This document shows positions 29,421 through 42,944 of a DNA stretch of 64,000 bases, piece after piece; the stretch's first letter is position 1; the number at the start of each line of letters is the position of its first letter. The notes beneath the pieces were generated by a model that worked only from the letters and a program-made list of their open reading frames with translations, was not told where the DNA came from and made no database searches. Source of the stretch: Stakelama portus (GTDB lineage Bacteria; Pseudomonadota; Alphaproteobacteria; Sphingomonadales; Sphingomonadaceae); assembly GCF_003171655.1 (NCBI RefSeq), contig NZ_QFZL01000001.1:186001-250000 (forward strand), written 5' to 3'. The position numbers and the translations under genes are program-made.

Positions 29421-30476
29421 TCAGGCGGTGCCGGGGGCCGGGCCGGTGGATTCGCGAATGATCAGGCTGGCCGCGACGATGCGCGGTTCGGTCGCGGGTT
29501 TCTTGCGCCGTTGCTGTTCGATGATCAGTTCGACGGCGGCTTCGGCAACCTCTGCGATCGGCTGGTGCACCGCAGTCAGCGGCGGATGCGCGAAGCGGAC
29601 GATCGGCGTGTCGTCGAAACTGACCAGCGACAGGTCGCGCGGGATGGTGAGACCGCGGTTGCGGGCGTATTCCATCACCGCCTGCAACTGATCGGCGCTG
29701 CCGATAATGGCAGTCGCGCCGACATCCGCAGACAATAGGCGTTCGGCGGCGGCGCGGCCCGATTCATAGCCGAAATCGCCTTCGGTCAGCAGGCCGTCGA
29801 TGTCGAGCCCGGCATCGGCCATCGCGGCCTTCCACCCTTCGACGCGCCACGCGCTGAGTTCATATTCGGGATCGCCGCCGATAAAGCCGATGCGGCGATG
29901 GCCGAGCGCGACGAGATGCTCGGTCGCCAGTCGCGCGGCGTGATCGTCGTCCATCGTCAGCCGGAAACCAGGGCCTTCGCACAGCGACCCGATCCGCGCG
30001 ACGCTGATCTTATGTTCGTCGAGCAGTTCGAGGATCGCCGGGTTCTGCGAATGCGGCGGCGTCAGGATCACGCCATCGGGTTGCAGCGCGGCGATGGCCG
30101 CGCGCAATTCGCGCTCGATATGGTCGCTATGCGTGTCGATCAGTTCGACGATCAGGCGATAGCCATGTTCGGCGCATTTGAGCATGCCGCCCAGCAGCAT
30201 CTGGTCGACCCAGTCGGTGCCTTCGCGTTTGCGCCAGTCGGCGATCGTCCGCTCGCGATCGTTCAGTGCCATGATCAGATAGGATCGCGATCCGCTCATC
30301 CGCTGCGCGGCGATGGAGGGGACATAGCCGAGCTTGTCGATCGAAGCCTGAACCCGCTCGAGCATCTCGGGCCGGACATTGGGCTCCTTGTTGATCACGC
30401 GGCTCACCGTCTGCAGGGAGACCCCTGCATCGGCGGCGACATGTTTGATGGTTACGGATTGCCGTCTTCGCGCCAT
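29421..30476 (-). CDS. LacI-family transcriptional regulator of the carbohydrate locus
   Basis: This 351-residue repressor has an N-terminal LacI HTH (VTIKHVAADAGVSLQTVSRVIN, 21 positions starting near residue 7) with hinge helix MSGSRS, followed by a periplasmic-binding-like sugar domain (about 65-340; GFIGGDPEYELSAWRVEGWK is typical). It is the last gene of the leftward TonB-receptor operon, 10 bases after halogenase 1, so it would feed back on its own expression. Two copies of TGAGAACGTTCAC, a LacI-type core, lie in the promoters of the receptor/GH3 pair and the beta-helix gene. The effector is likely a sugar released from the substrate glycan. Confidence 0.92.
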   Translation of the reverse strand: MARRRQSVTIKHVAADAGVSLQTVSRVINKEPNVRPEMLERVQASIDKLGYVPSIAAQRMSGSRSYLIMALNDRERTIADWRKREGTDWVDQMLLGGMLKCAEHGYRLIVELIDTHSDHIERELRAAIAALQPDGVILTPPHSQNPAILELLDEHKISVARIGSLCEGPGFRLTMDDDHAARLATEHLVALGHRRIGFIGGDPEYELSAWRVEGWKAAMADAGLDIDGLLTEGDFGYESGRAAAERLLSADVGATAIIGSADQLQAVMEYARNRGLTIPRDLSLVSFDDTPIVRFAHPPLTAVHQPIAEVAEAAVELIIEQQRRKKPATEPRIVAASLIIRESTGPAPGTA

Positions 30477-30486
30477 GGTCTTGCGT

Positions 30487-31983
30487 TCAGACCGCTTCGG
30501 GCTGTCGTGCGCCGCAATAGCGGGCGACATAGGCGGCATGGTCGGGCAGGCCCGATACGGTGCGCGTGACCAGGTCACGCAGGTTGGAAAGCAGCGAAGC
30601 GAGCTCCTCGTCGTTCAGTTTTTCGGCAATCGGGTGGTGGCTTTGCGGGACGATACCCTGACCCAGCATCACCTGGACCCAGCTGTTTTCGGCGAACAAT
30701 TCCTCGTTGCGGCGGAAGACGCGACCGGTTTCGCGGAACAGTTCGATCTTTTGAGTCAGCGTGTCGGGAATTTCCATGTCGCGGCACTGGCGCCAGAAGG
30801 CGCTGTCGTCGCGTTCGGTCACTTTATAGTGGAGGATCAGGAAGTCGCGGATCTGCACCATGTCGACATGCTGCTGGTCGTTGAATTCGGCAATATCGCG
30901 CGGGCTGATGCGATCGAGCGGCATCATCCGGATAAGGCGCAGCACGGCACGCTGGATCAAGTGGATGCTGGTCGATTCGAGCGGCTCCATGAACCCGCCC
31001 GACAGGCCGATCGCAACGCAGTTGCGATGCCATTGCCGCCGCCGCGCGCCGGTGGTGAAGCGCAGCTTGTTGGGCTCGGTCAGCGGCTTGCCCTCGATAT
31101 TGCCGAGCAGCCGTTCGAGCGCAGCGTCCTGCGACAGATAGCGGCTGCAATAGACCAGGCCATTGCCGGTGCGGTGCTGCAGCGGGATGCGCCATTGCCA
31201 GCCGGCATCATGCGCCATCGCGCGGGTATAGGGGATGGGCGGGCGGACATTTTCGGTCTGGACCGCGATCGCCGCGTCGCAGGGCAGCCAGTGAGTCCAG
31301 TCGTCGAAACCGGCGTGGAGTGCCCCTTCGATCAGCAGCGCGCGAAAGCCGGTGCAATCGAGGAACAGATCGCCTTCGATCCGTTGCCCGGAATCGAGCG
31401 TAAGCGCGGCGATATCGCCGCTCTCGCCATCGAGTTCGACCTGAGCGATCCGGCCTTCGATGCGTGTGGTGCCGTCGCCTTCGGCCATGTTGCGCAGGAA
31501 CCGGGCATAGGCGGTGGCGTCGAGCTGATAGGCATAGTTGAGCCCATTGTCGGGCAGATGCGCGAACTTGCCCGCCATCGCCGCGCCCAGCTCCAGACAG
31601 TAATCGGCATAGGGCTGGTCATGCCCGCGTTCGCGGCCATAGCGCCAGAAATGCTGGAATCCGGCGGACCAGTGATCCTTGCCGGTGATGCCGAAGCTGT
31701 GGAAATAGCTGTCGGTGCCGTTGCGCCACCCTTCGAAATTGATGCCGAGTTTGAAGGTCGCGTTGGTCGCGCGCATGAAATCGGCTTCGTTGATGCCGAG
31801 CAACCGGTTGTAGGCGACCAGCGGCGGAATGGTCGATTCACCCACGCCCACCGTGCCGATCGCATCGGATTCGACCAGCGTCACATCGACTGCCGATCCC
31901 AGCACGCGCGCGATCGCCGCCGCCGCCATCCAGCCGGCGGTGCCGCCGCCCGCGATCACCACGCGGCGCAATCTTCCTTCCAT
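30487..31983 (-). CDS. Flavin-dependent tryptophan-halogenase family protein (halogenase 1)
   Basis: The 498-residue protein belongs to PF04820. It has the FAD motif GGGTAGW (12-18), the catalytic lysine position K78 in NATFKLGI, the halogenase motif W262-Q-W264-R-I266-P267, and GGFMEPLESTS with the conserved Glu333 and Glu336. All hallmarks of PrnA/RebH-type halogenases are intact, so flavin-dependent halogenation is possible, but the substrate is unknown and free tryptophan is only a default. It is the penultimate gene of the operon, 5 bases after the cupin gene. Start ATG 31981-31983 opens directly before the FAD motif. Confidence 0.92.
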   Translation of the reverse strand: MEGRLRRVVIAGGGTAGWMAAAAIARVLGSAVDVTLVESDAIGTVGVGESTIPPLVAYNRLLGINEADFMRATNATFKLGINFEGWRNGTDSYFHSFGITGKDHWSAGFQHFWRYGRERGHDQPYADYCLELGAAMAGKFAHLPDNGLNYAYQLDATAYARFLRNMAEGDGTTRIEGRIAQVELDGESGDIAALTLDSGQRIEGDLFLDCTGFRALLIEGALHAGFDDWTHWLPCDAAIAVQTENVRPPIPYTRAMAHDAGWQWRIPLQHRTGNGLVYCSRYLSQDAALERLLGNIEGKPLTEPNKLRFTTGARRRQWHRNCVAIGLSGGFMEPLESTSIHLIQRAVLRLIRMMPLDRISPRDIAEFNDQQHVDMVQIRDFLILHYKVTERDDSAFWRQCRDMEIPDTLTQKIELFRETGRVFRRNEELFAENSWVQVMLGQGIVPQSHHPIAEKLNDEELASLLSNLRDLVTRTVSGLPDHAAYVARYCGARQPEAV

Positions 31984-31988
31984 CGCGC

Positions 31989-33023
31989 TCACCGGCTGAG
32001 CTGCCGCAGGATGAAGCCGCGCATGCGCGCCGCCTTTTCGGGAGTCAGCGGCGAAAGAACGCTGCGGCCGGGCTCGGGAATATGCGCCACGACATCGGCC
32101 TGATCGCCGAACACATAATAATCGAACAGATCGCGCCAATGCGCTTTCTCGTCCGCCGGCAAATCGCGGATCGACAGCATCGCGTGGTTGAGCGCGTCCT
32201 GCGGCTGGCCCAGCCAGCGCGGGGTTTCGCGCCACCAGTAATTGACCAGGATGTTGAAGCGATCGAGCCCTTCGACATGGTGCCACCACATGCTGGGGAT
32301 GTGCAGCGCGTCGCCCGGCTCCAGATCGGCGATCTGCGCATGTTCGAGCGCGTCGCGAAAGCGCGGAAAACGATCGAAATCGGGTGCGTGGAAATCGACC
32401 ATGCTCACTGCGCGGCCGGCAGGGGTATTGTCCACCGGGCCGAGATAGAGGTTGCGGAACTGATCGGGCGGGAACAGCGTGAAACGGCGCCGTCCGGCGG
32501 CGACACAGGCGAGATTGTCGGGAAAGTCGTTATGCGCCGCAATCCGCGTATGCGTGCCGATCCAGATGCTGGCGAGCAGGTCGCGTTCCCCCAGATCGAC
32601 ATGGTTCGCCGCGTCCAGGCCATCGAAATACTGATGCACGTCGGTCGACGCGATATAGATGGCGCGCGCGTCGCCCAGTTCCTCGCCCTTGTCGAACTGC
32701 GCGAAGATGCCGGGCAGCTTGCCCTTGAACGTGTTGAAATTCATCGCCGTGGCGTCGGCGTTATAGAACAGCCGCCCGTCATCCTGTGGCTGTCCGACCG
32801 ACACCGTGAAGTCCATGTCGCGGCTGAGGCCGAGCAGATAGTCGCGCGCGGCACGCGGCGACTGGCGCGCAGCCTCGACCAGCGGCCAGTGCGCCACCAG
32901 CCCGCGAATGACGAACGGCGTCGTTGCGTCGCGCAGCAGCATATCGAGCGCAGCCGCATCGGCGGCTTCGACTTCGCGAATGCTCGCCGCCGCCTGAAAC
33001 GGTCCGGGATCGCGTTCAGCCAT
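31989..33023 (-). CDS. Cupin_8/JmjC-like protein, possible Fe(II)/2-oxoglutarate oxygenase
   Basis: The 344-residue protein has a JmjC-like fold. The facial triad appears as H164-x-D166 in AAHNDFPDN and His248 or His249 in MWWHHVEG, with the downstream Lys/Arg-rich strand GRRRFTLFPPDQ for 2-oxoglutarate. This matches the cupin_8 (PF13621) group, whose characterised members hydroxylate proteins or amino acids. Neighbours are SapC (start overlaps the sapC stop by 8 bases) and halogenase 1. The same trio recurs beside TonB receptors in sugar loci of related bacteria, where its purpose is not established. Hydroxylase activity is inferred from the triad alone. Confidence 0.85.
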   Translation of the reverse strand: MAERDPGPFQAAASIREVEAADAAALDMLLRDATTPFVIRGLVAHWPLVEAARQSPRAARDYLLGLSRDMDFTVSVGQPQDDGRLFYNADATAMNFNTFKGKLPGIFAQFDKGEELGDARAIYIASTDVHQYFDGLDAANHVDLGERDLLASIWIGTHTRIAAHNDFPDNLACVAAGRRRFTLFPPDQFRNLYLGPVDNTPAGRAVSMVDFHAPDFDRFPRFRDALEHAQIADLEPGDALHIPSMWWHHVEGLDRFNILVNYWWRETPRWLGQPQDALNHAMLSIRDLPADEKAHWRDLFDYYVFGDQADVVAHIPEPGRSVLSPLTPEKAARMRGFILRQLSR

Positions 33024-33729
33024 GGCGCATCCGGCGGTTCTTGCGCGCGACCAGCGCGTCGAGATTGCCGAGCGAGGCCACTGCCATGAACAGCGGCATC
33101 AGATGCCCGGCGGCATGGAGATCGGCGAGCGCAGCGGCATCGAGATCGCGCAGCTTCGCCTCATCGACGATGTGGAACCCGACCAGCCGATTGGTCGAAC
33201 CATCCTCCAGCGTCACTTCGAGTGTCAGCGGCTCAAGCAGATCATAACGCTGGATCGCCGCGAAGAAATCGGGAGAGGCGACATAGCCGGCGTCGAGCTC
33301 GCCCAGCTTTTCGGTAATGTGGTCGAGGAAGGGAGTGGGGCGCCCCACTTCATCGAACACGCGGACGCCATCGGCGGCGATGCGCGGGCTCGCCATGTCG
33401 ATATGGACCTGTCGCTCCTCGGAATCAGGTGCGGCGCGCCCGATCAGGAATGGCTGAATGTCCATCGCCAGCGGGCGATAGCGCGCGTCCCAGCCCCCGT
33501 TTTCCAGGAACAGGTTTTCGCCGGTTTCGAAACCGAACATGGCGAGCGCAGTAAAGGCGTCACGCTCGACATTCAGCCGGAACAGGATCGGATATTCGTT
33601 CTGAACCCGCCGAAACTCGTTGGGCACGGTGATGCAGCACATCACCGCATCGCCCAGATCGGCGCTGCGATCGGTGGAGATGCGCAGATCGGCATGCGCT
33701 TGCGCAGTGAGGACGGTGTGGCTGGTCAT
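33016..33729 (-). CDS. SapC-family protein
   Basis: The 237-residue product matches the SapC family (PF07277): [24 protein letters not shown] in pieces (about 29-52), [21 protein letters not shown] (about 66-86), then IQPFLIG, followed by a C-terminal helical part. The name derives from Campylobacter S-layer work, but a biochemical function is not known for the proteobacterial soluble form. No signal peptide is apparent, so it is probably cytoplasmic. The start overlaps the halogenase 2 stop by 4 bases and the stop overlaps the cupin gene by 8, so the three proteins are made in a fixed ratio. Confidence 0.88.
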
Positions 33730-35297
33730 GACTGGATGGCGTGCTCTTGAGAGGGAATAAGGCCTGCCGCCCGGACCGCGTCAAGATAGGCGCGGTTGTC
33801 GGGCAGCGCTGCGGCAAGCGCACGGGCGCGCTGATGCGTCTGTTCGAACGCGCGATTCAGCGGTTCGCGCGGGCCGGTACGGATGGCACCGTCGGGCGGC
33901 GGAGGAAAGCCCATGCCGTAGAGGACATATTGATAGCTGGCGGCCGGGAAAATCTCGTCGACGCGATCGAGATCGGTGGTCGAAGGCGGATGATAGCGCC
34001 AGATTTCAAGCAGTTCGCCAAGGCGCGGCGGGATCGTCGCGGAGTCGCGATGCGCGCGCCAATAGGGCTCGTCGCGTTCGCTCAGCACATAATGAAGCTT
34101 GAGGAATTCGACGATCCGGTCCCAGCGGGTGCGGAACAGCGCGTTGAACCGACGGGCGTGCAGATCCATCGCCGAACGCGTCGCAGGAAAATTATCGAGC
34201 AGCGCATCGAGCGACAATTCGATCATCACGATCGCCGACGCTTCGAGCGGTTCGACAAATCCCGCCGACAGACCGATGGCGAGGCAGTTGCGCTCCCAGA
34301 AACGTTCGCGATGGCCCGATCGGAAGGAAAGGCGGCGCGGGGCGAGCGCATCGATATCGGCGCCGGGCACCACGCGCGCGATATAATCGCGGAGCGTTGC
34401 CTCCGCCGCGTCGTCGTTCAAATAACGCGAGGCATAGACACAGCCGATGCCGCGCCGCGTCGGCAGGCCGATGTCCCAGATCCAGCCCGCGGCATGCGCA
34501 GTACCGGTGGTCTGCGACGCGATCGGGCTGTCGGGTGCCACCGGTACCTGCACGGCCAGCGCGCGATCGTTGAACAATGTGTCGCTGCGATCGATCACCG
34601 GCACGTCATAATGGCCGCCGAGCAGCAATGCGGCATGGCCGGTGCAATCGAGGAAGAGATCGCCGGTTATCCGGCCGGAGCCGCGCGTGGTCACGGCGGC
34701 GATGTCGCCATCCGCTGTGGCTTCGACGGCGTCGACATGGTCGCGGATGTGCCGCACGCCCAGCCGTTCGGCGCCGTGCCGGGCGAGCAGCATGGCGAGC
34801 TTTCCGGCGTCGAGATGATAGGCATAGTTCAGCGCGCCGCCATATTCGGCCATGTTGCGCTGGCGCGGCGCGAGCATGCGGTCGCATATTGCCGGCTGCG
34901 CACACAAGGTGGCGGCAAAATCGCTTGCCGGACCGGTGTCGCGCCACGCCGCGACGATATCGCGCGGATCGCCTTCGACCGGCGGCGTGAAGGGATGGTA
35001 ATAGCGATCGTCCGGCGCGCCGGTGCGCCAGCCGTCGAAGCGCGAACCCTGTTTGAAACTCGCGTCGCATGCGATCAGAAATTCGGTTTCGGAAATGCCG
35101 ATGCGCTGCAGCGTGTGGCGCATTGTCGGCCAGGTGCCTTCGCCGACGCCGATAGTGGGAATGTCAGGCGATTCGATCAGCGTGACCTGAAGCGGGGAGG
35201 GCGCATCGCGATCGGCGCGGGCCGCGATCAGGCACGCCGCCAGCCATCCGGCGGTTCCCCCGCCGACGATGACAATCTGTGCGATCGGCCTGTCCAC
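33726..35297 (-). CDS. Flavin-dependent tryptophan-halogenase family protein (halogenase 2)
   Basis: The 523-residue PF04820 protein has GGGTAGW (12-18), the catalytic lysine position K82 in DASFKQGS and [11 protein letters not shown] with the conserved glutamates. The halogenase signature is changed: residues 272-277 read W-I-W-D-I-G, with Gly in place of the usual Pro. It is only distantly like halogenase 1, so the two are not a recent duplication. It is the first gene after the receptor, beyond a strong hairpin. A non-halogenating flavoprotein is as possible as a halogenase. Confidence 0.9.
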
Positions 35298-35338
35298 CGC
35301 ATGCCTCGGAAAAAGGAGTATCCTCGCCCGGAAATAGG

Positions 35339-35372
35339 GGAGAAGTCACGCCCGATCGAGCGTGACTTCTCC
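35339..35372. other. Perfect 13-bp hairpin between the TonB receptor and halogenase 2
   Basis: Arms GGAGAAGTCACGC (35339-35351) and GCGTGACTTCTCC (35360-35372) pair perfectly around an 8-base loop that is itself partly symmetric. It lies 32 bases after the receptor stop on the minus strand. On that strand the tail is not U-rich (CCTATTTCC), so it is more likely a stability or processing hairpin than a full terminator. On the plus strand it is followed by TTTT, but no rightward gene ends here. Confidence 0.65.
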
Positions 35373-35404: not shown

Positions 35405-38400
35405 TCAATAGGTGAAGCGGAGACCCGCCGAATATCGGGCATATCCGGGCGAGACGAAGGTCACCGTATTGTCCGAGCGGCGATGGCCGCGCCGGCTTTC
35501 CCCGGTGAGATTGATCCCTTCGACAAAGGCCGTGAAGCCGGGGATGAACTCATAGCTCGCGCTCGCGTCCACCTGGCCATAGGCCTCGACATAGAAGGGG
35601 TTGGCGCCGGTGCCCTGCAGGAACTCGTCGCGCCAGTTATACGCGACACGCGCCTGGATCGGCCCCTTGTCATAGAAGATCACGGCATTGGCGCTGTCGC
35701 TCAGCCCGGTCAGCGCGAATTGCGTGACGTTGTAGGGCTGGGTGTTGTCGTAGGTCGCGTCGCCGTTGACGATCGTATAGTTCAGGATGACGCCGAAGCC
35801 GGTTTCCCAGAAGCTGTGCTGGATCGCGAATTCCCAACCGTACAGCTGTGCGGTCTGCGAATTGTTGACCGGCTGATTGACCTGGAAATTGACCAGCGGA
35901 TCTTCGTCGAGCGAATAGATTTCGCCGGTCGTATAGCCCGCCGGATCGGTGCCCGTCGGATTGGTCGAACCGGGATAGTTGTCGAAGATATACTGGCGGA
36001 TATCCTGCGCCGAAGCGCCGGACCCCAGGGCGGCAAGCGCGGCCTGATAGCGCGGGCCGCCGAACACCGTCCGCAGGCCGAACGCCGACATGTCGGTGCG
36101 GTCCTGCGAAATGAAGTTCGACACGTCCTTGTGGAAATAGCCGACCGAAATGTAGCTCGACGGGCCGTAATACCATTCCGCCGACAGATCGATATTCTTC
36201 GATTTATACGGCAGCAGCCCCGGATTGCCGTTGCTGCCGGTGCCGCCGCCGACACGGAACTGGGTGTCGAGCGTCAGACCGCCCTGAAGGCTGCCATAAT
36301 CGGCGCGGGTGATGGTGTGGCTGTACGATGCGCGCAGCTTCACATCGCGGACCGGCTCCATGTCGAAATCGATCGCGGGCAGCCAGTTTTCATATTCGCC
36401 CTTGAACCGCGTGAAGTCCTGATCGCCCGAATAGGAGATATAGAATTCGTTCGCGGCGTTCCACGACGTCCCGTCGGGAATCGGCACCAGCGCTCCGGAG
36501 GAAATGCTGGTGAATTCATAGCGTACCCCCGCGCGCAGATGCGCCGGATTGCTGAACAGCATGAATTCGTTGTTGATCTGCAGATAGGGCGACACCGTCT
36601 TTTCGGTGATGCGGCGATCGACGGTGAAGTCGGCAAGGCAGGTGCCCGCCGGAGCCGTGCCGGCCTGCGGCGAACTGCACGTGCCGTACAGGCTTTCGAT
36701 CAGATCGACCATCCGTTCGAAATCGAAGCTGTAGAGGCCCTGGATCATGTTCGGATCGTCGGCGCCGTCGAGCCCGGAAAATTTGTCGGGCAGCGAGACA
36801 TAGGTGAAGATGTCGTCGGGAATGTCCGACGCGGGACCGGCGCCGCTCCAGGTTTCGTTCTGGATATAGCCATAGGCCGACCGCACCTTGTTTTCGGTGT
36901 AGGACATGCCCCAGTCGATGCTGTCGAGGAAGCTGCCCTGATGGTCGTAATGGCCCGTCAGCTGGATCTGGTTGATCTCGTCCCGGAAATAGGCGTTGCG
37001 GAACGCATTGCCGGTCGGCGTGATGTTCGCCGGGTCATACTGATCGATGCCCGGATACATGTTGACCGAAATGACCGGCAGATAGCTGTCATAGCGTTCG
37101 GTCTGATTCTGAACGCCGAACACGGCGTTACCCACCGAAACGCTCGAGCCATATTTATTGGTCGGCTTTGATTCCGCAGTCGAATGATGCGCGTCGAGCT
37201 GCATCGTCACGCCGCCGGGCGCATCCCAGGTCAGATTGAAGCCGAGCGACTTGTTCTCGCTCTCGTTCGCGGTCAGCGCGCCGCTATAGGACAGATCCTT
37301 GCGCTCGCCCGCACCGAACGCTTCGGAATAAAAGACCGGTCCGGCGACCGGGCCGTCGGTCCATTCGCTCGATACGTCGTTGAAATTATACCAGATGCCG
37401 ACATTGCTGTTCCGCACTTCCACCTTGTTGCGCGAATAGGTGAAATCGACGGTGGCAGTCAGCGAATCGATCGGGCGAACCTGCAGCACGGCCTGGCCGT
37501 TGAGGCGTTCGCGGTCGATATCGTTGAGGTTGTACGACCCGTTCTGCGGCACCGCATAGACATCATTGCCTTCGGGACGGTTGGTGATGTTCGCCGCACG
37601 GCCATCGGGCGCGGCGGGAAGCGCGCCCCAGGAGGTCGTGTCGCTGCCCAGATAGCCGTCGCGCCAGTCGATATTGGCGCTGTTCGTGCTTGCCTTGCGG
37701 CGCTGGTACGAACCGGCGATCAGGATGCCGATGCTGTCATTGGCGAAGGTGTCGCTGAAGATTCCGGAAACTTCGGGCGTGATTTCCTGGTCGCCGTTCA
37801 TCGACGAATCGAGCACGCCCTTGGCGGCGATGCTGCCGCGCAGGCCAGGCCGGTCGAGCGGACGCGGGGTCAGGATGTTGATCGTCGAGCCGATGCCGCC
37901 ACTGGGGATCGAGGCGCGGCCGCTCTTATACACTTCGACCGCCGAAATGCCTTCCGACGCGAGGTTGGCGAAATCGAACGAGCGCGATGCGGGCGGGCTG
38001 GCGCCGTCGCCGAGCGTCGAGGTCGGCATCTGGCGGCCGTTGAGCAGCACCAGATTGAATTCGGGACCGAAACCGCGAACCGTGACGGTCGAGCCTTCGC
38101 CGTTCGAACGGTCGATCGACACGCCGGTGATGCGCTGCAGCGATTCGGCGAGGTTGGTGTCGGGGAACTTGCCGATATCTTCGGCGGAGATCGCATCGAC
38201 GATGCCCTGACCGTCGCGCTTGATCAGCATCGAGTCGCGCAAGCTGGCACGGATGCCGGTGACGACGATTTCCTCGCCCTGGGTTTCCTGCGGCTGGGTT
38301 TGTTCGGACTGGCCGGATGCGTCCTGGGCGAACGCAGTCGCGGGAACAGTGAGCGCCAGCACGGAGGCTCCCAGAGCCCACCGGGACACAGCGCGAGCGT

Positions 38401-38413: not shown

Positions 38414-38461
38414 GATCTCCCTCCCTAGTTTTACTTGCATGGCTGTCCCATGCGATCGTTA

Positions 38462-38474
38462 TGAGAACGTTCAC
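38462..38474. promoter_or_regulatory. LacI-type operator, copy 1 (receptor/GH3 control region)
   Basis: The 13-mer TGAGAACGTTCAC contains the LacI-type core GAACGTTC (38465-38472). It lies between the divergent receptor (49 bases from its start) and GH3 (119 bases from its start). A minus-strand -35 TTGACA is at 38495-38500; the expected -10 (38472-38477) overlaps the site, as in repression. The same 13-mer recurs at 44768-44780. Confidence 0.72.
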
Positions 38475-38592
38475 TTGCGCAGTTTCAATCCTGCTGTCAA
38501 GTAATTGCAGACAGCCTGGCCGTTCGGCCCAAGACAAGGAAGAGCGTTCGTCGCGCGCAGCGACGCGGCGCCGCAATCAGGTGAGGAAGAGC

Positions 38593-40848
38593 ATGACCAA
38601 GCGCTTTAGATCGTTGATTCTTGCAAGTGTTTTTGCCGGAACGCTGCAGGTTCCCTTTGCCGTTGCGCAGGATGCGCCGGCGGTGGCTGCGGCGGCTCAG
38701 GACGCACGGGCGCGGGCCGATTCGCTGGTCGCGCAGATGACGCTGGATGAGAAGATCAAATTGCTCCACGGGCTGTTCCCGCCGATGGCAGACGGCAAGA
38801 CCGAAGAGACGCTGGTCCCGTCGGCCGGGCATTTCGATGCGCTGCCGCGCCTGGGCATTCCGACGATTCGCGAAACCGATGCCTCGCTGGGCGTCGCCAA
38901 CCAGGTCGAGCAGCGCAAGGGCGACACCGCCACCGCGCTTCCCTCCAGCCTTGCCACCGCGGCGACTTTCGATCCCGGCATTGCGCGCGAGGGCGGGGAG
39001 ATGATCGGCGCCGAAGCGCGCGCCAAGGGGTTCAACGTGATGCTCGCAGGCGGCGTCAACCTGACCCGCGATCCGTGGAACGGGCGCAATTTCGAATATC
39101 TGGGCGAGGATCCGCTGCTCGCCGGTACGATGGCGGGCGCGCATATCGCAGGGGTTCAGTCGAACAAGATCGTTTCGACGGTGAAGCATTTCGCGCTCAA
39201 TGCGCAGGAAACCGGGCGGATGGTGCTCGACGCGCGAATCGATGAGGCGGCGTTCCGCGAATCCGATCTGCTGGCGTTTCAGCTCGCGATCGAGATCGGC
39301 AATCCGGCTTCGGTGATGTGCGCGTACAACAAGGTCAATGGCGACTGGGCGTGCGAGAACGACTTCCTGATGAATCAGGTGCTCAAGCGCGACTGGGGCT
39401 ATCAAGGCTGGGTGATGAGCGACTGGGGCGGGGTGCATTCGACTGCCAAGGCCGCGCTTGCCGGGCTCGATCAGGAATCGGGTCAGGAACTCGATTCGCA
39501 GATTTTCTTCGGTGAACCGCTCAAGGCGGCCGTGGAGTCGGGTGCAGTATCCGAAGCGCGGATCGACGACATGGTTGCGCGCTTCCTGACCGGGCTGATC
39601 GAAGCCGGCGTGCTCGACAATCCGGTGCCGGAGCATCCGCAGCCCATCCCCTATGACGTCCATGCCGATGTTGCACAGCGCGCCGCCGAAGCGGGCATCG
39701 TGCTGCTCAAGAATCAAGGCGATATCCTGCCGCTCGCCACCACCGCGCAGAAGATCGTGCTGATCGGTGGCCATGCCGATGTCGGCGTGCTTTCGGGCGG
39801 CGGGTCGAGCCAGGTGCGTTCGGTCGGCGGGGTGCCGATCGAAGTGCCGCTGACCGAAGGCGCGGCGATGTCGTTCGCGCGGCTGACCTATCACAACAGC
39901 TCGCCGATGCGGGCGCTGCAGGCGGCGCTGCCCAATGCACAGATCAGCTTTGTCGACGGGTCGGACCCGGCGGCTGCGGCACAGGCGGCTGCCGATGCCG
40001 ACATGGCCATCATATTCGCGACGCAATGGACCACCGAGGCACAGGATGTGGACGACATCCGCCTGCCCGACGGGCAGGACGCGCTGATCGCGGCGGTCGC
40101 GGCGGCGCAGCCCAAAACCGTCGCGGTGATGGAAACCGGCGGACCGGTGCTGATGCCGTGGATCGATCAGGTGCCGGCGGTGTTGCAGGCCTGGTATCCC
40201 GGCCAGCGCGGGGGTGAGGCGATCGCCAATCTGCTGACCGGGCGAGTCAACCCGTCGGGTCGCCTGCCGATCACCTTCCCGGCATCCGCCGATCAGCCGC
40301 CGCGTCCCGCTCCTGTCGGCCTCGAAACGTTGACCAGCCTCGAAGCACAGGCGGCGGCCAACCCCGCCAATGCCGGCGCCTATCAGCTCAGGACCTTCCC
40401 GGTCGATTATGTCGAAGGCGCCGATGTCGGCTATCGCTGGTATGAAAAACAGGGGCTGACCCCGCTCTTCGCCTTTGGCCATGGCCTCAGCTACACCAGC
40501 TTTGCCTATCGCAACGCCACGGTGACCGGCGGCGACACGATCACGCTGTCGTTCGATGTCGTGAATACCGGCGATCGGGCAGGGGCGGACGTGCCGCAAA
40601 TGTACATCACGCGCACCGATGGCGGCGATCCGATGCGGCTTGCGGCATTCGATCGCATCACGCTGCTGCCCGGTGAGACGCGCCATGTCACGCTGACCGC
40701 CGAACCGCGCATCCTCGCCGATTACGATACCAGCCTGCCGGGATGGCGCATCGCGGGGGGCAGCTACACCGTCGCGCTGGCACGCGATGCCACCGATCGC
40801 AGCCAGAGTTTCACGGTCGATGTGAACCCCGCGACCATCGCGCCGTAA
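38593..40848 (+). CDS. Exported GH3 beta-glucosidase
   Basis: This glycoside hydrolase family 3 enzyme would release glucose from beta-glucan oligosaccharides in the periplasm. The 751 residues include a signal peptide (to about 25, VPFAVAQ), the GH3 (beta/alpha)8 domain, the nucleophile Asp277 in VMSDWGG, the KHFALNAQE block with the substrate-binding Lys-His (about 197-205), and C-terminal alpha/beta and fibronectin-III-like domains. GAGGAAGAG precedes ATG 38593; an upstream in-frame ATG has no such site. It is followed by an MFS transporter and diverges from the receptor. GH3 plus GH16 fits beta-1,3-glucan breakdown. Confidence 0.94.
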   Translation: MTKRFRSLILASVFAGTLQVPFAVAQDAPAVAAAAQDARARADSLVAQMTLDEKIKLLHGLFPPMADGKTEETLVPSAGHFDALPRLGIPTIRETDASLGVANQVEQRKGDTATALPSSLATAATFDPGIAREGGEMIGAEARAKGFNVMLAGGVNLTRDPWNGRNFEYLGEDPLLAGTMAGAHIAGVQSNKIVSTVKHFALNAQETGRMVLDARIDEAAFRESDLLAFQLAIEIGNPASVMCAYNKVNGDWACENDFLMNQVLKRDWGYQGWVMSDWGGVHSTAKAALAGLDQESGQELDSQIFFGEPLKAAVESGAVSEARIDDMVARFLTGLIEAGVLDNPVPEHPQPIPYDVHADVAQRAAEAGIVLLKNQGDILPLATTAQKIVLIGGHADVGVLSGGGSSQVRSVGGVPIEVPLTEGAAMSFARLTYHNSSPMRALQAALPNAQISFVDGSDPAAAAQAAADADMAIIFATQWTTEAQDVDDIRLPDGQDALIAAVAAAQPKTVAVMETGGPVLMPWIDQVPAVLQAWYPGQRGGEAIANLLTGRVNPSGRLPITFPASADQPPRPAPVGLETLTSLEAQAAANPANAGAYQLRTFPVDYVEGADVGYRWYEKQGLTPLFAFGHGLSYTSFAYRNATVTGGDTITLSFDVVNTGDRAGADVPQMYITRTDGGDPMRLAAFDRITLLPGETRHVTLTAEPRILADYDTSLPGWRIAGGSYTVALARDATDRSQSFTVDVNPATIAP

Positions 40849-40911
40849 TTCGTCGCACGCGGCGGCGGCAGGCGCTTGCCCGCCGCCGCGCGCACGGGCA
40901 GTGTGGCGCCG

Positions 40912-42114
40912 ATGGAACCGCTTACATCCGCTGCGCCCGAGCGCCGATCGACGGGGTTCCTGCTGCTGTGCGGGCTTGCCTATGCCGGCGGGGTGATTTC
41001 CTATCTGCCGCTGCTCGCGCTGATGCTGCCCGAAAAGGTCGAGCGGATCGCGGGCGACGCGCGGCTCGATGTGTTCACCGCCTGTGTGATCGCCGGCGGG
41101 GTGGCCGCGAGCATTTCCAACATCGTCTTCGGCTGGCTCAGCGACCGCAGCTTTGCGGCGGGCAAGGGGCGGCGCGGATGGATGGTGCTGGGCGTGGCGG
41201 CGCTGGCGCTCAGTTTCGCGGGCGTGGCGGCGGCGGACACGCCGATGGCGGTGCTGGTCGCCATCGTCTTTTTCCAGATCGCCGTGAACATCATCCTCGC
41301 GCCGCTGTTCGCGCTGATGGCCGAGGAGATACCCGACGGCCAGAAGGGGACGGTCGGTGGCCTGTTGTCGCTGGCATCGCCGGCGGCGACGATGCTGTCG
41401 GCCTGGATGTTCGTGGCGGTGCCGGGCGCAGAGGCAGCGCATCTGGCGATCGTTGCGCTGGTAGTGGCGCTGTGCGTCCTTCCGCTGTTGCTGATTCGCC
41501 CGCGCATTGTGGCCGATGCCGTGATGCCCGAGCAGGAAAAACAGATGCTGCGCGGCGACATGGCGATCGCATGGACCGCGCGCATTTTCGTTCAGATGGC
41601 GGGCGCTGCGCTGTCGAGCTACCTCATCTATTATTTTGAGAGCATCGCGCCCGAATTGCGCGAGGCTATGAAGGCGCGGGTCGGCAATTTGCTGACGATC
41701 GCCTATTTGGCGCCGGTGCCGCTGGCGATCCTGCTCGGCCGGATTTCCGACCGGATCGACCGGCGCAAGCCGTTTCTGTTCGCGACTGCCGCGCTGGCAT
41801 CGGCGGGAATCGTCGTCATGGCACTGGCCGATAGCTGGCAGGCGGGGGCAGTTGGCGTGTGCATCTACACCGCCGGCATCGCGATCTTTCTGGCGCTGCA
41901 TGCAACCTTTTCGATGCAGTTGCTGCCCAATCCGCGCCATCGCGGGCGCGATCTGGGGCTGCTCAACCTTACCAACACGCTGCCGATCCTGGCGGGGCCA
42001 GCGCTCACCTGGCTGCTGGCGACGCCGGAGGATTTCGATCCCGCCTTATGGGTGCTCGCGGTGCTGACGCTGATCGGCGGGCTGATCGTGCTGCTGGTGC
42101 GCGGGCGGCGCTAA
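40912..42114 (+). CDS. MFS transporter, inner membrane sugar permease candidate
   Basis: This 400-residue protein has about 12 membrane helices, with the MFS loop motif GWLSDRSF after helix 2 and GRISDRIDRRKPF in the matching second-half position. It probably carries the mono- or oligosaccharide made by GH3 and GH16 into the cytoplasm. ATG 40912 opens just before the first helix. It lies 63 bases after GH3 on the same strand, and its stop overlaps the GH16 stop on the opposite strand. It is not close to the LacY or sugar-phosphate families; it resembles the glycoside-cation-symporter-like or GPH-type members. The substrate is inferred from context. Confidence 0.88.
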   Translation: MEPLTSAAPERRSTGFLLLCGLAYAGGVISYLPLLALMLPEKVERIAGDARLDVFTACVIAGGVAASISNIVFGWLSDRSFAAGKGRRGWMVLGVAALALSFAGVAAADTPMAVLVAIVFFQIAVNIILAPLFALMAEEIPDGQKGTVGGLLSLASPAATMLSAWMFVAVPGAEAAHLAIVALVVALCVLPLLLIRPRIVADAVMPEQEKQMLRGDMAIAWTARIFVQMAGAALSSYLIYYFESIAPELREAMKARVGNLLTIAYLAPVPLAILLGRISDRIDRRKPFLFATAALASAGIVVMALADSWQAGAVGVCIYTAGIAIFLALHATFSMQLLPNPRHRGRDLGLLNLTNTLPILAGPALTWLLATPEDFDPALWVLAVLTLIGGLIVLLVRGRR

Positions 42115-42944
42115 TCGGTGTCCGGCGCGGGCCAGAAGCGGACATAATCGACCGACATGCGCTGGGGCAGGGCAGTATCGTCGATACCTTCCTTGCCGCC
42201 CCAGTCGCCGCCGATCGCAAGGTTTAGGATCAGCGCATAGGGCCGGTCGAACGGCCATGCCGCATGGCCGCCGGGCTGATCGTCGCGCACCTCCATATAG
42301 CCGCGATCATCATAGCCGATCAGGATCCGGTCCTTGGTCCAGCTCAGCTGATAGCGGTGATAGGCGGTGCAGGCGCTGGGGATCGTCACCTGCGCGCCGC
42401 GCTGCGTGCCGAGGCGATGGTTGAACGCGCCCGAATGGAGCGTACCATGGACGACATTGGCGTCCCATCCGACCATTTCCATGATGTCGATTTCGCCCTG
42501 ATCCGGCCACTCGCCGGTTTCGGGAAGCATCCAGATCGCCGGCCAGGTGCCGCGACCGCAGGGCAGCTTTGCGCGGATTTCGTAAAAGCCATAGCCGAGC
42601 AGGTCGCGGGTCACCAGCTTGGCGGACGTATATTCCTGTCCGCCCCAATCGGCGAACTCGCTGCGCTTGAGCGTTTCGCGATGTGCTTCGATCACCAGCG
42701 CGCCATCCTCGATCCGCGCATTTTTGGCCCGGTCGGCGGCGTAATATTGCCTTTCGTTGTTGTACCAGCCCTGGGCATTGCGCGACGTGTCGTAGCGCCA
42801 TTTGCCGGTATCGATTTCGGGATCGTTGAATTCGTCGGCAAAGCCCGGCGCGGTGGTCGGCGTCTCCATCGGCACGTCGACGCTATAGTTGGTGGCGCCC
42901 AGCGAGCTTGTCGTCTGGAGCAGCATGGTCGCGGCGATCAGCAT
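42111..42944 (-). CDS. Exported GH16 endo-beta-glucanase (laminarinase-like)
   Basis: The enzyme would cut beta-1,3- or mixed-linked glucan internally. The 277 residues start with a signal peptide (to about 16, ending LGA). The GH16 catalytic motif GEIDIMEMVG has Glu151 as nucleophile, Asp153 and Glu156 as acid/base; the extra Met between Ile and Glu is typical of laminarinases rather than lichenases. KYDTSRNAQ and VVHGTLHSG are supporting segments. Its ribosome-binding site AGGAGG lies inside the end of the beta-helix gene, 4 bases from its stop, so the two are coupled. Short length suggests no extra binding modules. Confidence 0.93.
   Translation of the reverse strand: MLIAATMLLQTTSSLGATNYSVDVPMETPTTAPGFADEFNDPEIDTGKWRYDTSRNAQGWYNNERQYYAADRAKNARIEDGALVIEAHRETLKRSEFADWGGQEYTSAKLVTRDLLGYGFYEIRAKLPCGRGTWPAIWMLPETGEWPDQGEIDIMEMVGWDANVVHGTLHSGAFNHRLGTQRGAQVTIPSACTAYHRYQLSWTKDRILIGYDDRGYMEVRDDQPGGHAAWPFDRPYALILNLAIGGDWGGKEGIDDTALPQRMSVDYVRFWPAPDTD

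Follow-up and report, generated by a model that had tools for sequence, protein, structure and literature searches.

What is achieved by four tightly packed genes, encoding two proteins of the flavin-dependent halogenase family (hal1 and hal2), a SapC family protein and a cupin, when they are placed between the gene for a TonB-dependent receptor and the gene for a LacI-family regulator? The question is raised by a stretch of 64,000 nucleotides from Stakelama portus (contig NZ_QFZL01000001.1, positions 186,001 to 250,000), here called the window. The four genes, here called the cassette, form a conserved, widespread and co-inherited unit that is coupled to the receptor, and we propose, with a probability of roughly 0.4, that this unit is a protein-modification module dedicated to the receptor and acting before export.

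The coupling follows from how the genes recur. When named genomes were scanned with the cupin, the best 80 of 276 relatives were kept (79 from Sphingomonadales and one from Caulobacter), and in all 80 loci the genes for receptor, SapC, cupin and hal1 lie on one strand, an arrangement far from chance. A LacI gene is present in 78 of these loci and hal2 in 70. Since hal2 is missing from the other 10, which are scattered on the receptor tree at apparently about five places, it is dispensable. The initial annotation had taken the tight coupling as a sign of one pathway and had stated that the families recur beside TonB receptors; the constant gene order identifies a co-inherited operon module, and the cassette genes are found together also in diverse Pseudomonadota. 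The same coupling is seen from the side of SapC. Among 98 SapC-centred regions, a non-random sample picked from listed PF07277 matches with preference for long contigs, all 31 regions with a window-type receptor (more than 400 bits with our own hidden Markov model) carry hal1, hal2 or cupin, while a hal1-like gene is present in only 3 of the 67 regions without such a receptor. Finally, 58 of 397 genomes encode hal1-like proteins (E <= 1e-110), and a listed receptor of TIGR01782 type is found in 57 of the 58, compared with 87 of the 397 genomes overall. With few matches per genome scored, the distance to a listed receptor is 6 kb or less for at least 78 of 126 hal1 places.

The cassette type follows the receptor clade and is independent of the kind of sugar. 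When 87 receptors are placed on a tree, the cassette types group in blocks by clade: one clade has hal2-SapC near its base, then SapC-cupin-hal1 and then the quartet of the window, and in a second clade SapC is accompanied by one or two hal2. The neighbouring genes, from which the names of the sugars are presumed, are of beta-glucan type (GH3, GH1, GH16, MFS_2), of galactan type (agarase-carbohydrate-binding module/GH42, sulfatase, gluconolactonase-like protein) or of chitin/N-acetylglucosamine (GlcNAc) type (GH20, amidohydrolase, SIS, BcrAD-type kinase), and GH2 is also among them. Annotated plasmid regions (17 of 47 matching records examined) add xylanase, GH43, GH115, GH95 and alpha-galactosidase, and in some of them SapC and cupin are divergent from the receptor. 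From the occurrence of cassette genes in loci for chemically different sugars follows that a sugar-linked aromatic is unlikely as a substrate shared by all. The initial annotation had left the choice between such an aromatic and a protein; of these the protein is now favoured, also by analogy, as some relatives of hal1 and of the cupin are enzymes that target side chains of proteins. That composition tracks the receptor clade, that hal2 is dispensable and that SapC also occurs without halogenases are points beyond that annotation.

Both halogenase family members exceed the PF04820 cut-off of 21 bits and carry the FAD (flavin adenine dinucleotide) motif GGGTAGW, of GxGxxG type. The conserved Lys and Glu, presumably equivalent to the catalytic pair of PrnA, are K81 (109 of 113 sequences) and E336 (111 of 113) in hal1, and K82 and E349 (101 of 102 each) in hal2. 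In the cupin the metal triad H164/D166/H248 is kept in 110 of 110 sequences, so that motif claims made earlier for all three proteins (FAD motif with Lys and Glu, and HxD...H) are borne out. A complete WxWxIP motif is present in hal1 (W265 in 113 of 113, W267 in 110 and P270 in 109). The sequence matches of hal1 in the Protein Data Bank (PDB) are headed by 6y1w, presumably Xcc4156 (686 bits), followed by 9luq and by 6frl, presumably BrvH (475 bits); the best matches of hal2 are 9ltb and 2pyx, and 5uao, which we take to be MibH, is among the matches of both. On a tree, hal2 forms a single group (37 of 37, support 0.992), and members from the second clade branch close to its base. The best PDB sequence matches of the cupin are to factor inhibiting HIF (FIH), with E 2e-21 over residues 156-274, and FIH is an asparaginyl protein hydroxylase.

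Different information comes from SapC. PF07277 is found in 139 of 397 sampled Pseudomonadota genomes, and the residues H12, E38, N72, P86, P93, F125 and S219 are kept in 182 to 185 of 185 sequences. An AlphaFold model from a 31-sequence alignment has a pLDDT of 94.1. Among PDB sequences no relative is found for SapC up to E 1, and its model has no Foldseek PDB match at E <= 0.001 (the sole VIA row has Z 2.1), from which novelty of fold is not implied; a viral structure library gives nothing at E <= 0.001 either. An open reading frame (ORF) of at least 1500 amino acids is present in 17 of the 67 regions without a window-type receptor (solitary SapC) versus none of the 31 receptor-linked regions and 2 of 40 control regions with a receptor. 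These controls were chosen away from listed SapC, still contain SapC in 5 cases, and are shorter (median 15.5 versus 20 kb). The other 50 solitary regions have no ORF of this size. One of the giant ORFs beside SapC encodes an RTX protein (L075), long ORFs are found where a gene family for ShlB-type secretion is also present, two giant-ORF proteins share the stretch LEPRVLL, and Pfam gives no match on two of three giant ORFs. In the SapC tree, 108 of 118 receptor-linked SapC are set apart from the 67 others (support 0.999), and the remaining ten (nine from receptor loci of the second clade, and an additional copy in L276) lie inside the solitary group. From this follows, with midpoint rooting, that SapC has joined receptors at least twice. 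Together the sequences suggest that SapC serves exported proteins in general.

If the receptor is the substrate, which residue may be modified? The strongest lead, and not a proof, is Trp531, which in the AlphaFold model (local pLDDT 73-78, mean of the whole receptor 80.2) comes just past the strand 507-528 and opens a long segment to residue 607; it is predicted to face outward, provided that the short turns are periplasmic. The main hal1-linked clade has 108 receptors, one of which (L268) is gapped at this position; the residue is Trp in the 107 others, of which 46 are at less than 70% mutual identity. Measured by how far its conservation exceeds that of neighbouring positions, it stands 15th among 1011. 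When 122 receptors are pooled, the loop motif [DNSTG]W[GSN] occurs in 42 of 43 with hal1 and in 6 of 79 without, where "without" means no hal1 in the stretch examined, about 6 kb on each side or less. In this set L190 (contig end) and the duplicates L038, L039 and L041 were left out, every eighth of the 80 named loci was used (70 out), and L175 was scored as having hal1, its divergent hal1 lying next door. Another residue, Trp660, was also considered; it is kept in the unlinked receptors L199 and L202 (L158_16511 was left out of the unlinked set) and follows the clade, and was dropped. When receptor residues that track the loss of hal2 were sought, only A301 and Q929, both non-aromatic, passed the filter.

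The proposal can now be stated as a sequence of steps. The LacI-family regulator and the sugar would switch on the receptor and the enzymes together. In the cytoplasm, before the unfolded receptor is exported, hal1 would halogenate or oxidise a receptor tryptophan with the help of reduced FAD, oxygen and halide, Trp531 in the predicted extracellular loop being its best candidate target. The FIH-like cupin may hydroxylate another receptor side chain, SapC may hold or present the exported polypeptide to the enzymes, and hal2 may serve a second, dispensable site. The marked loop could then modulate the binding of sugar, its own folding, or the resistance to proteases or phage. Since no signal peptide is evident by eye (no predictor was applied) on hal1, hal2, SapC or cupin, the four proteins are probably cytoplasmic. 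It is doubtful whether the proposal may be extended to TIGR01782 sugar receptors of Proteobacteria as a widespread class, halogenated and hydroxylated by enzymes of their own operons with SapC presenting the substrate, and thereby to the natural role of the orphan halogenases of BrvH and Xcc4156 type.

Several observations weigh against modification of the receptor. A Trp anywhere in the loop is present in 43 of 43 receptors with hal1 and also in 36 of 79 without, and the letters of the motif were widened after the data had been seen. In the plasmid regions, chosen after the hypothesis had arisen and read by eye, Trp is found in 5 of 5 receptors with hal1 but also in 6 of 12 without. The hal1 label changes just five times on the receptor tree, with about three or four gains, and the link between Trp531 and hal1 is therefore confounded by shared ancestry; one of the gains (L170) is without the loop motif, and L199 retains the Trp without a nearby cassette. 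A conserved loop Trp would look equally like a sugar-stacking residue, and no aromatic residue of the receptor tracks the loss of hal2 in the 10 of 80 loci. Moreover, in a detail that the initial annotation does not give, hal2 keeps WxWxI but has Pro in none of 102 sequences (Gly in 82, Ala in 14, others in 6), and is here classed as a PF04820 family member and not asserted to be an active halogenase. When genomes with fuller receptor lists are considered, at most 17 of 55 hal1 places lie more than 6 kb from any listed receptor. With these points in view, co-inheritance might exist without functional contact, with Trp531 serving to bind sugar and the cassette acting on a different protein, exported or cytoplasmic. 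This would agree with the many loop Trp outside hal1 loci, with the failure of any receptor residue to follow hal2, and with the large, presumably exported proteins in regions of other SapC. It is one of two main rivals, and we regard it as unlikely when TIGR01782 receptors accompany hal1 in all but one of its genomes, when no neighbour family besides the cassette genes occurs in more than 12 of 42 loci, and when receptor-linked SapC lie on two separate SapC branches, although hal2 forms one group.

The slow bromination of free indole by BrvH in vitro (PMC5945002) also counts against a receptor substrate, and brings in the other main rival. The product of the cassette may be a small metabolite, halogenated or hydroxylated (from indole or some other aromatic, for example), that cells export or sense while growing on polysaccharide; the receptor link would then be one of co-regulation only. 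Most PF04820-type members with known roles belong to natural-product pathways, and members of the family halogenate free Trp or indole. Against it, no biosynthetic family is seen in the 20 scanned of 24 recurrent neighbour families, which are mostly glycosidases, transporters and sugar metabolism; the annotated plasmid regions look similar. As the composition of the cassette follows the receptor clade, and as the authors of the BrvH study themselves doubt indole as the natural substrate (PMC5945002), we find this explanation improbable. Still another explanation has the incoming glycan, or an aromatic group bound to it, as the substrate of the enzymes. The cassette is found mostly in sugar-uptake loci, and some plant glycans carry aromatic esters. 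Algal beta-glucan and GlcNAc, in contrast, have to our knowledge no aromatic ring to halogenate, cassette genes occur with enzymes for beta-glucan, chitin/GlcNAc, galactan/agar, xylan and alpha-galactosides alike, and the four proteins are probably cytoplasmic; a glycan substrate is very improbable.

The layout of the locus is given in Table 1.

Table 1. Features of the receptor locus, with positions counted from the first letter of the window
Feature	Position	Strand	Basis and remarks
LacI-family regulator	29421-30476	minus	PF00356 + Peripla_BP_3
hal1, flavin-dependent halogenase, Xcc4156/BrvH type	30487-31992 (GTG) or 30487-31983 (ATG)	minus	PF04820 630.7 bits
cupin_8, FIH/JmjC-like 2-oxoglutarate oxygenase family	31989-33023	minus	PF13621 233.6 bits
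SapC family protein	33016-33729	minus	PF07277 210.3 bits (cut-off 28.9)
hal2, flavin-dependent halogenase family protein, GTG start	33726-35297	minus	PF04820 392 bits
Strong hairpin of 35 bases from the receptor-hal2 gap, with a perfect core of 13 bp	35338-35372	minus	intergenic fold
TonB-dependent receptor, TIGR01782 type, 1011 amino acids	35405-38440	minus	TIGR01782 591.9 bits; plug + barrel domains; proposed cassette substrate
Trp531 codon of the receptor (candidate site of modification, loop IQNETWSGAG)	36848-36850	minus	reading frame checked; predicted extracellular loop
GH3 enzyme	38461-40848	plus	Pfam Glyco_hydro_3 + C-terminal domain
MFS transporter	40876-42114	plus	Pfam MFS_1
GH16 enzyme	42111-42944	minus	Pfam Glyco_hydro_16

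On the minus strand the order is receptor, hal2, SapC, cupin_8, hal1 and LacI. The hal2 and SapC genes overlap by 4 bases and SapC and cupin by 8, and the cupin is followed by hal1 after a 5-base gap when hal1 starts at its ATG, or with a 4-base overlap when it starts at GTG. The coordinates agree with the initial annotation, which had placed four genes with junctions of 4, 8 and 5 bases (the last with the ATG) between receptor and LacI in a context of glycan uptake; the GH3, GH16 and MFS genes at the receptor locus suggest that it serves beta-glucan. A TIGR01782 receptor, glycosidases, an MFS transporter and LacI are all present, as in a sugar receptor locus. Since LacI starts only 10 bases past hal1, it can belong to the same operon.

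The receptor gene is upstream of hal2 and separated from it by 107 bases, which fold at -45.5 kcal/mol. A perfect stem of at least 8 bp after the receptor stop is present in 42 of the 80 related loci (the junction being misplaced in L209 and L277, where the receptor ORFs break off early), and the hairpin sequences differ. The mean stem is 8.4 bp, compared with 5.1 in whole-sequence, not dinucleotide, shuffles. Such a hairpin could lower the expression of the enzymes in relation to that of the receptor, which is expected if the enzymes act catalytically on the receptor.

Further PF04820 genes are found within and outside this genome. The source genome has 5 PF04820 proteins, 2 SapC and 6 TIGR01782 receptors above cut-off, and the 3 PF04820 proteins outside the window are encoded in tandem beside a second TIGR01782 receptor. 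At this second locus (L167, G000:C10:150425-158023) the receptor is followed by the three tandem halogenases, in the middle one of which Lys is replaced by Cys, and a GH20 gene is nearby. In two other regions, ORFs of about 960-1020 amino acids (L090:13920-16811 and L095:2780-5845) carry a halogenase domain with Lys changed to Arg; SapC is 3-4 kb away, and a giant ORF with the LEPRVLL stretch is close by. On a Pseudoalteromonas megaplasmid (L292:11624-13620) two successive hal1-like ORFs, with no annotated gene, are perhaps a broken hal1 beside hal2.

Other gene families are observed near cassette genes or near solitary SapC. DUF6445 (PF20043; for example L083:13011-13787) adjoins them in 9 of 42 loci, and its pattern HxD...H...R, of the kind seen in 2-oxoglutarate oxygenases, is conserved in 95% or more of 21 sequences, which suggests another 2-oxoglutarate oxygenase or dioxygenase. 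For DUF6445 no related PDB sequence is found at E up to 1, and NCBIfam has no match for SapC, DUF6445 or cupin, even at E 10. A TPR-sulfotransferase, possibly another protein-modifying enzyme, is near receptor-SapC-hal2 in three second-clade (chitin/GlcNAc) loci (L108:4936-6507, L115 and L139). The gene just upstream of SapC encodes one FAD-linked oxidase family in 16 of the 67 solitary regions (L076, L084, L112 and 13 more), with a representative matching PF02913/PF01565.

How does the cassette compare with what is known? Loci for TonB-dependent carbohydrate utilisation (PMC1790865) likewise unite receptor, LacI, MFS and glycosidases, and a term search of that paper gives no halogenase, SapC or cupin. 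Among the literature matches listed, with subscription journals mostly outside the scope, no description of the cassette or its role was found, as the initial annotation had held when it stated that these families have no established role beside TonB receptors. The cupin aligns with FIH and keeps the metal triad, as do FIH/JmjC hydroxylases, but differs from FIH in being bacterial and operon-linked to a receptor. The flavoproteins QhpG, LodB and GoxB modify Trp of a partner protein, QhpG by dihydroxylation (PMC7876137). They involve no halide, and hal1 and hal2 are far below the NCBIfam cut-offs: with the QhpG model hal2 scores 36.6 and hal1 31.2 of 240 bits, weak values that are uncalibrated against other halogenases, and with the LodB model hal1 scores 19.3 of 400 bits.

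SrpI and MibH are flavin-dependent halogenases which target Trp within a peptide, SrpI by bromination and MibH by chlorination (PMC10858898). These act on a precursor peptide, while the substrate proposed for the cassette is a large outer-membrane receptor. No short precursor peptide gene is present within the cassette, as far as the junctions and the 107-base hairpin region are concerned (the rest of the genome was not searched), and since the junctions are overlaps of 4 and 8 bases and a gap of 5, there is no room for one. Nearest to hal1 are BrvH and Xcc4156, which are of the same type but have been studied as biocatalysts; TonB and SapC are absent, by term search, from the main texts of both papers. 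BrvH adjoins a second halogenase, 42.7% identical, has weak activity on indole and has room for larger substrates, and its natural substrate is left open by the authors (PMC5945002). The tie to a receptor family and a named candidate residue narrow that question. The protein families are known, and so is the halogenation of Trp in peptides; a version dedicated to a receptor would be new. If the proposal is true, it would mean enzymatic halogenation of an outer-membrane transporter, and it would give a pointer to the function of SapC.

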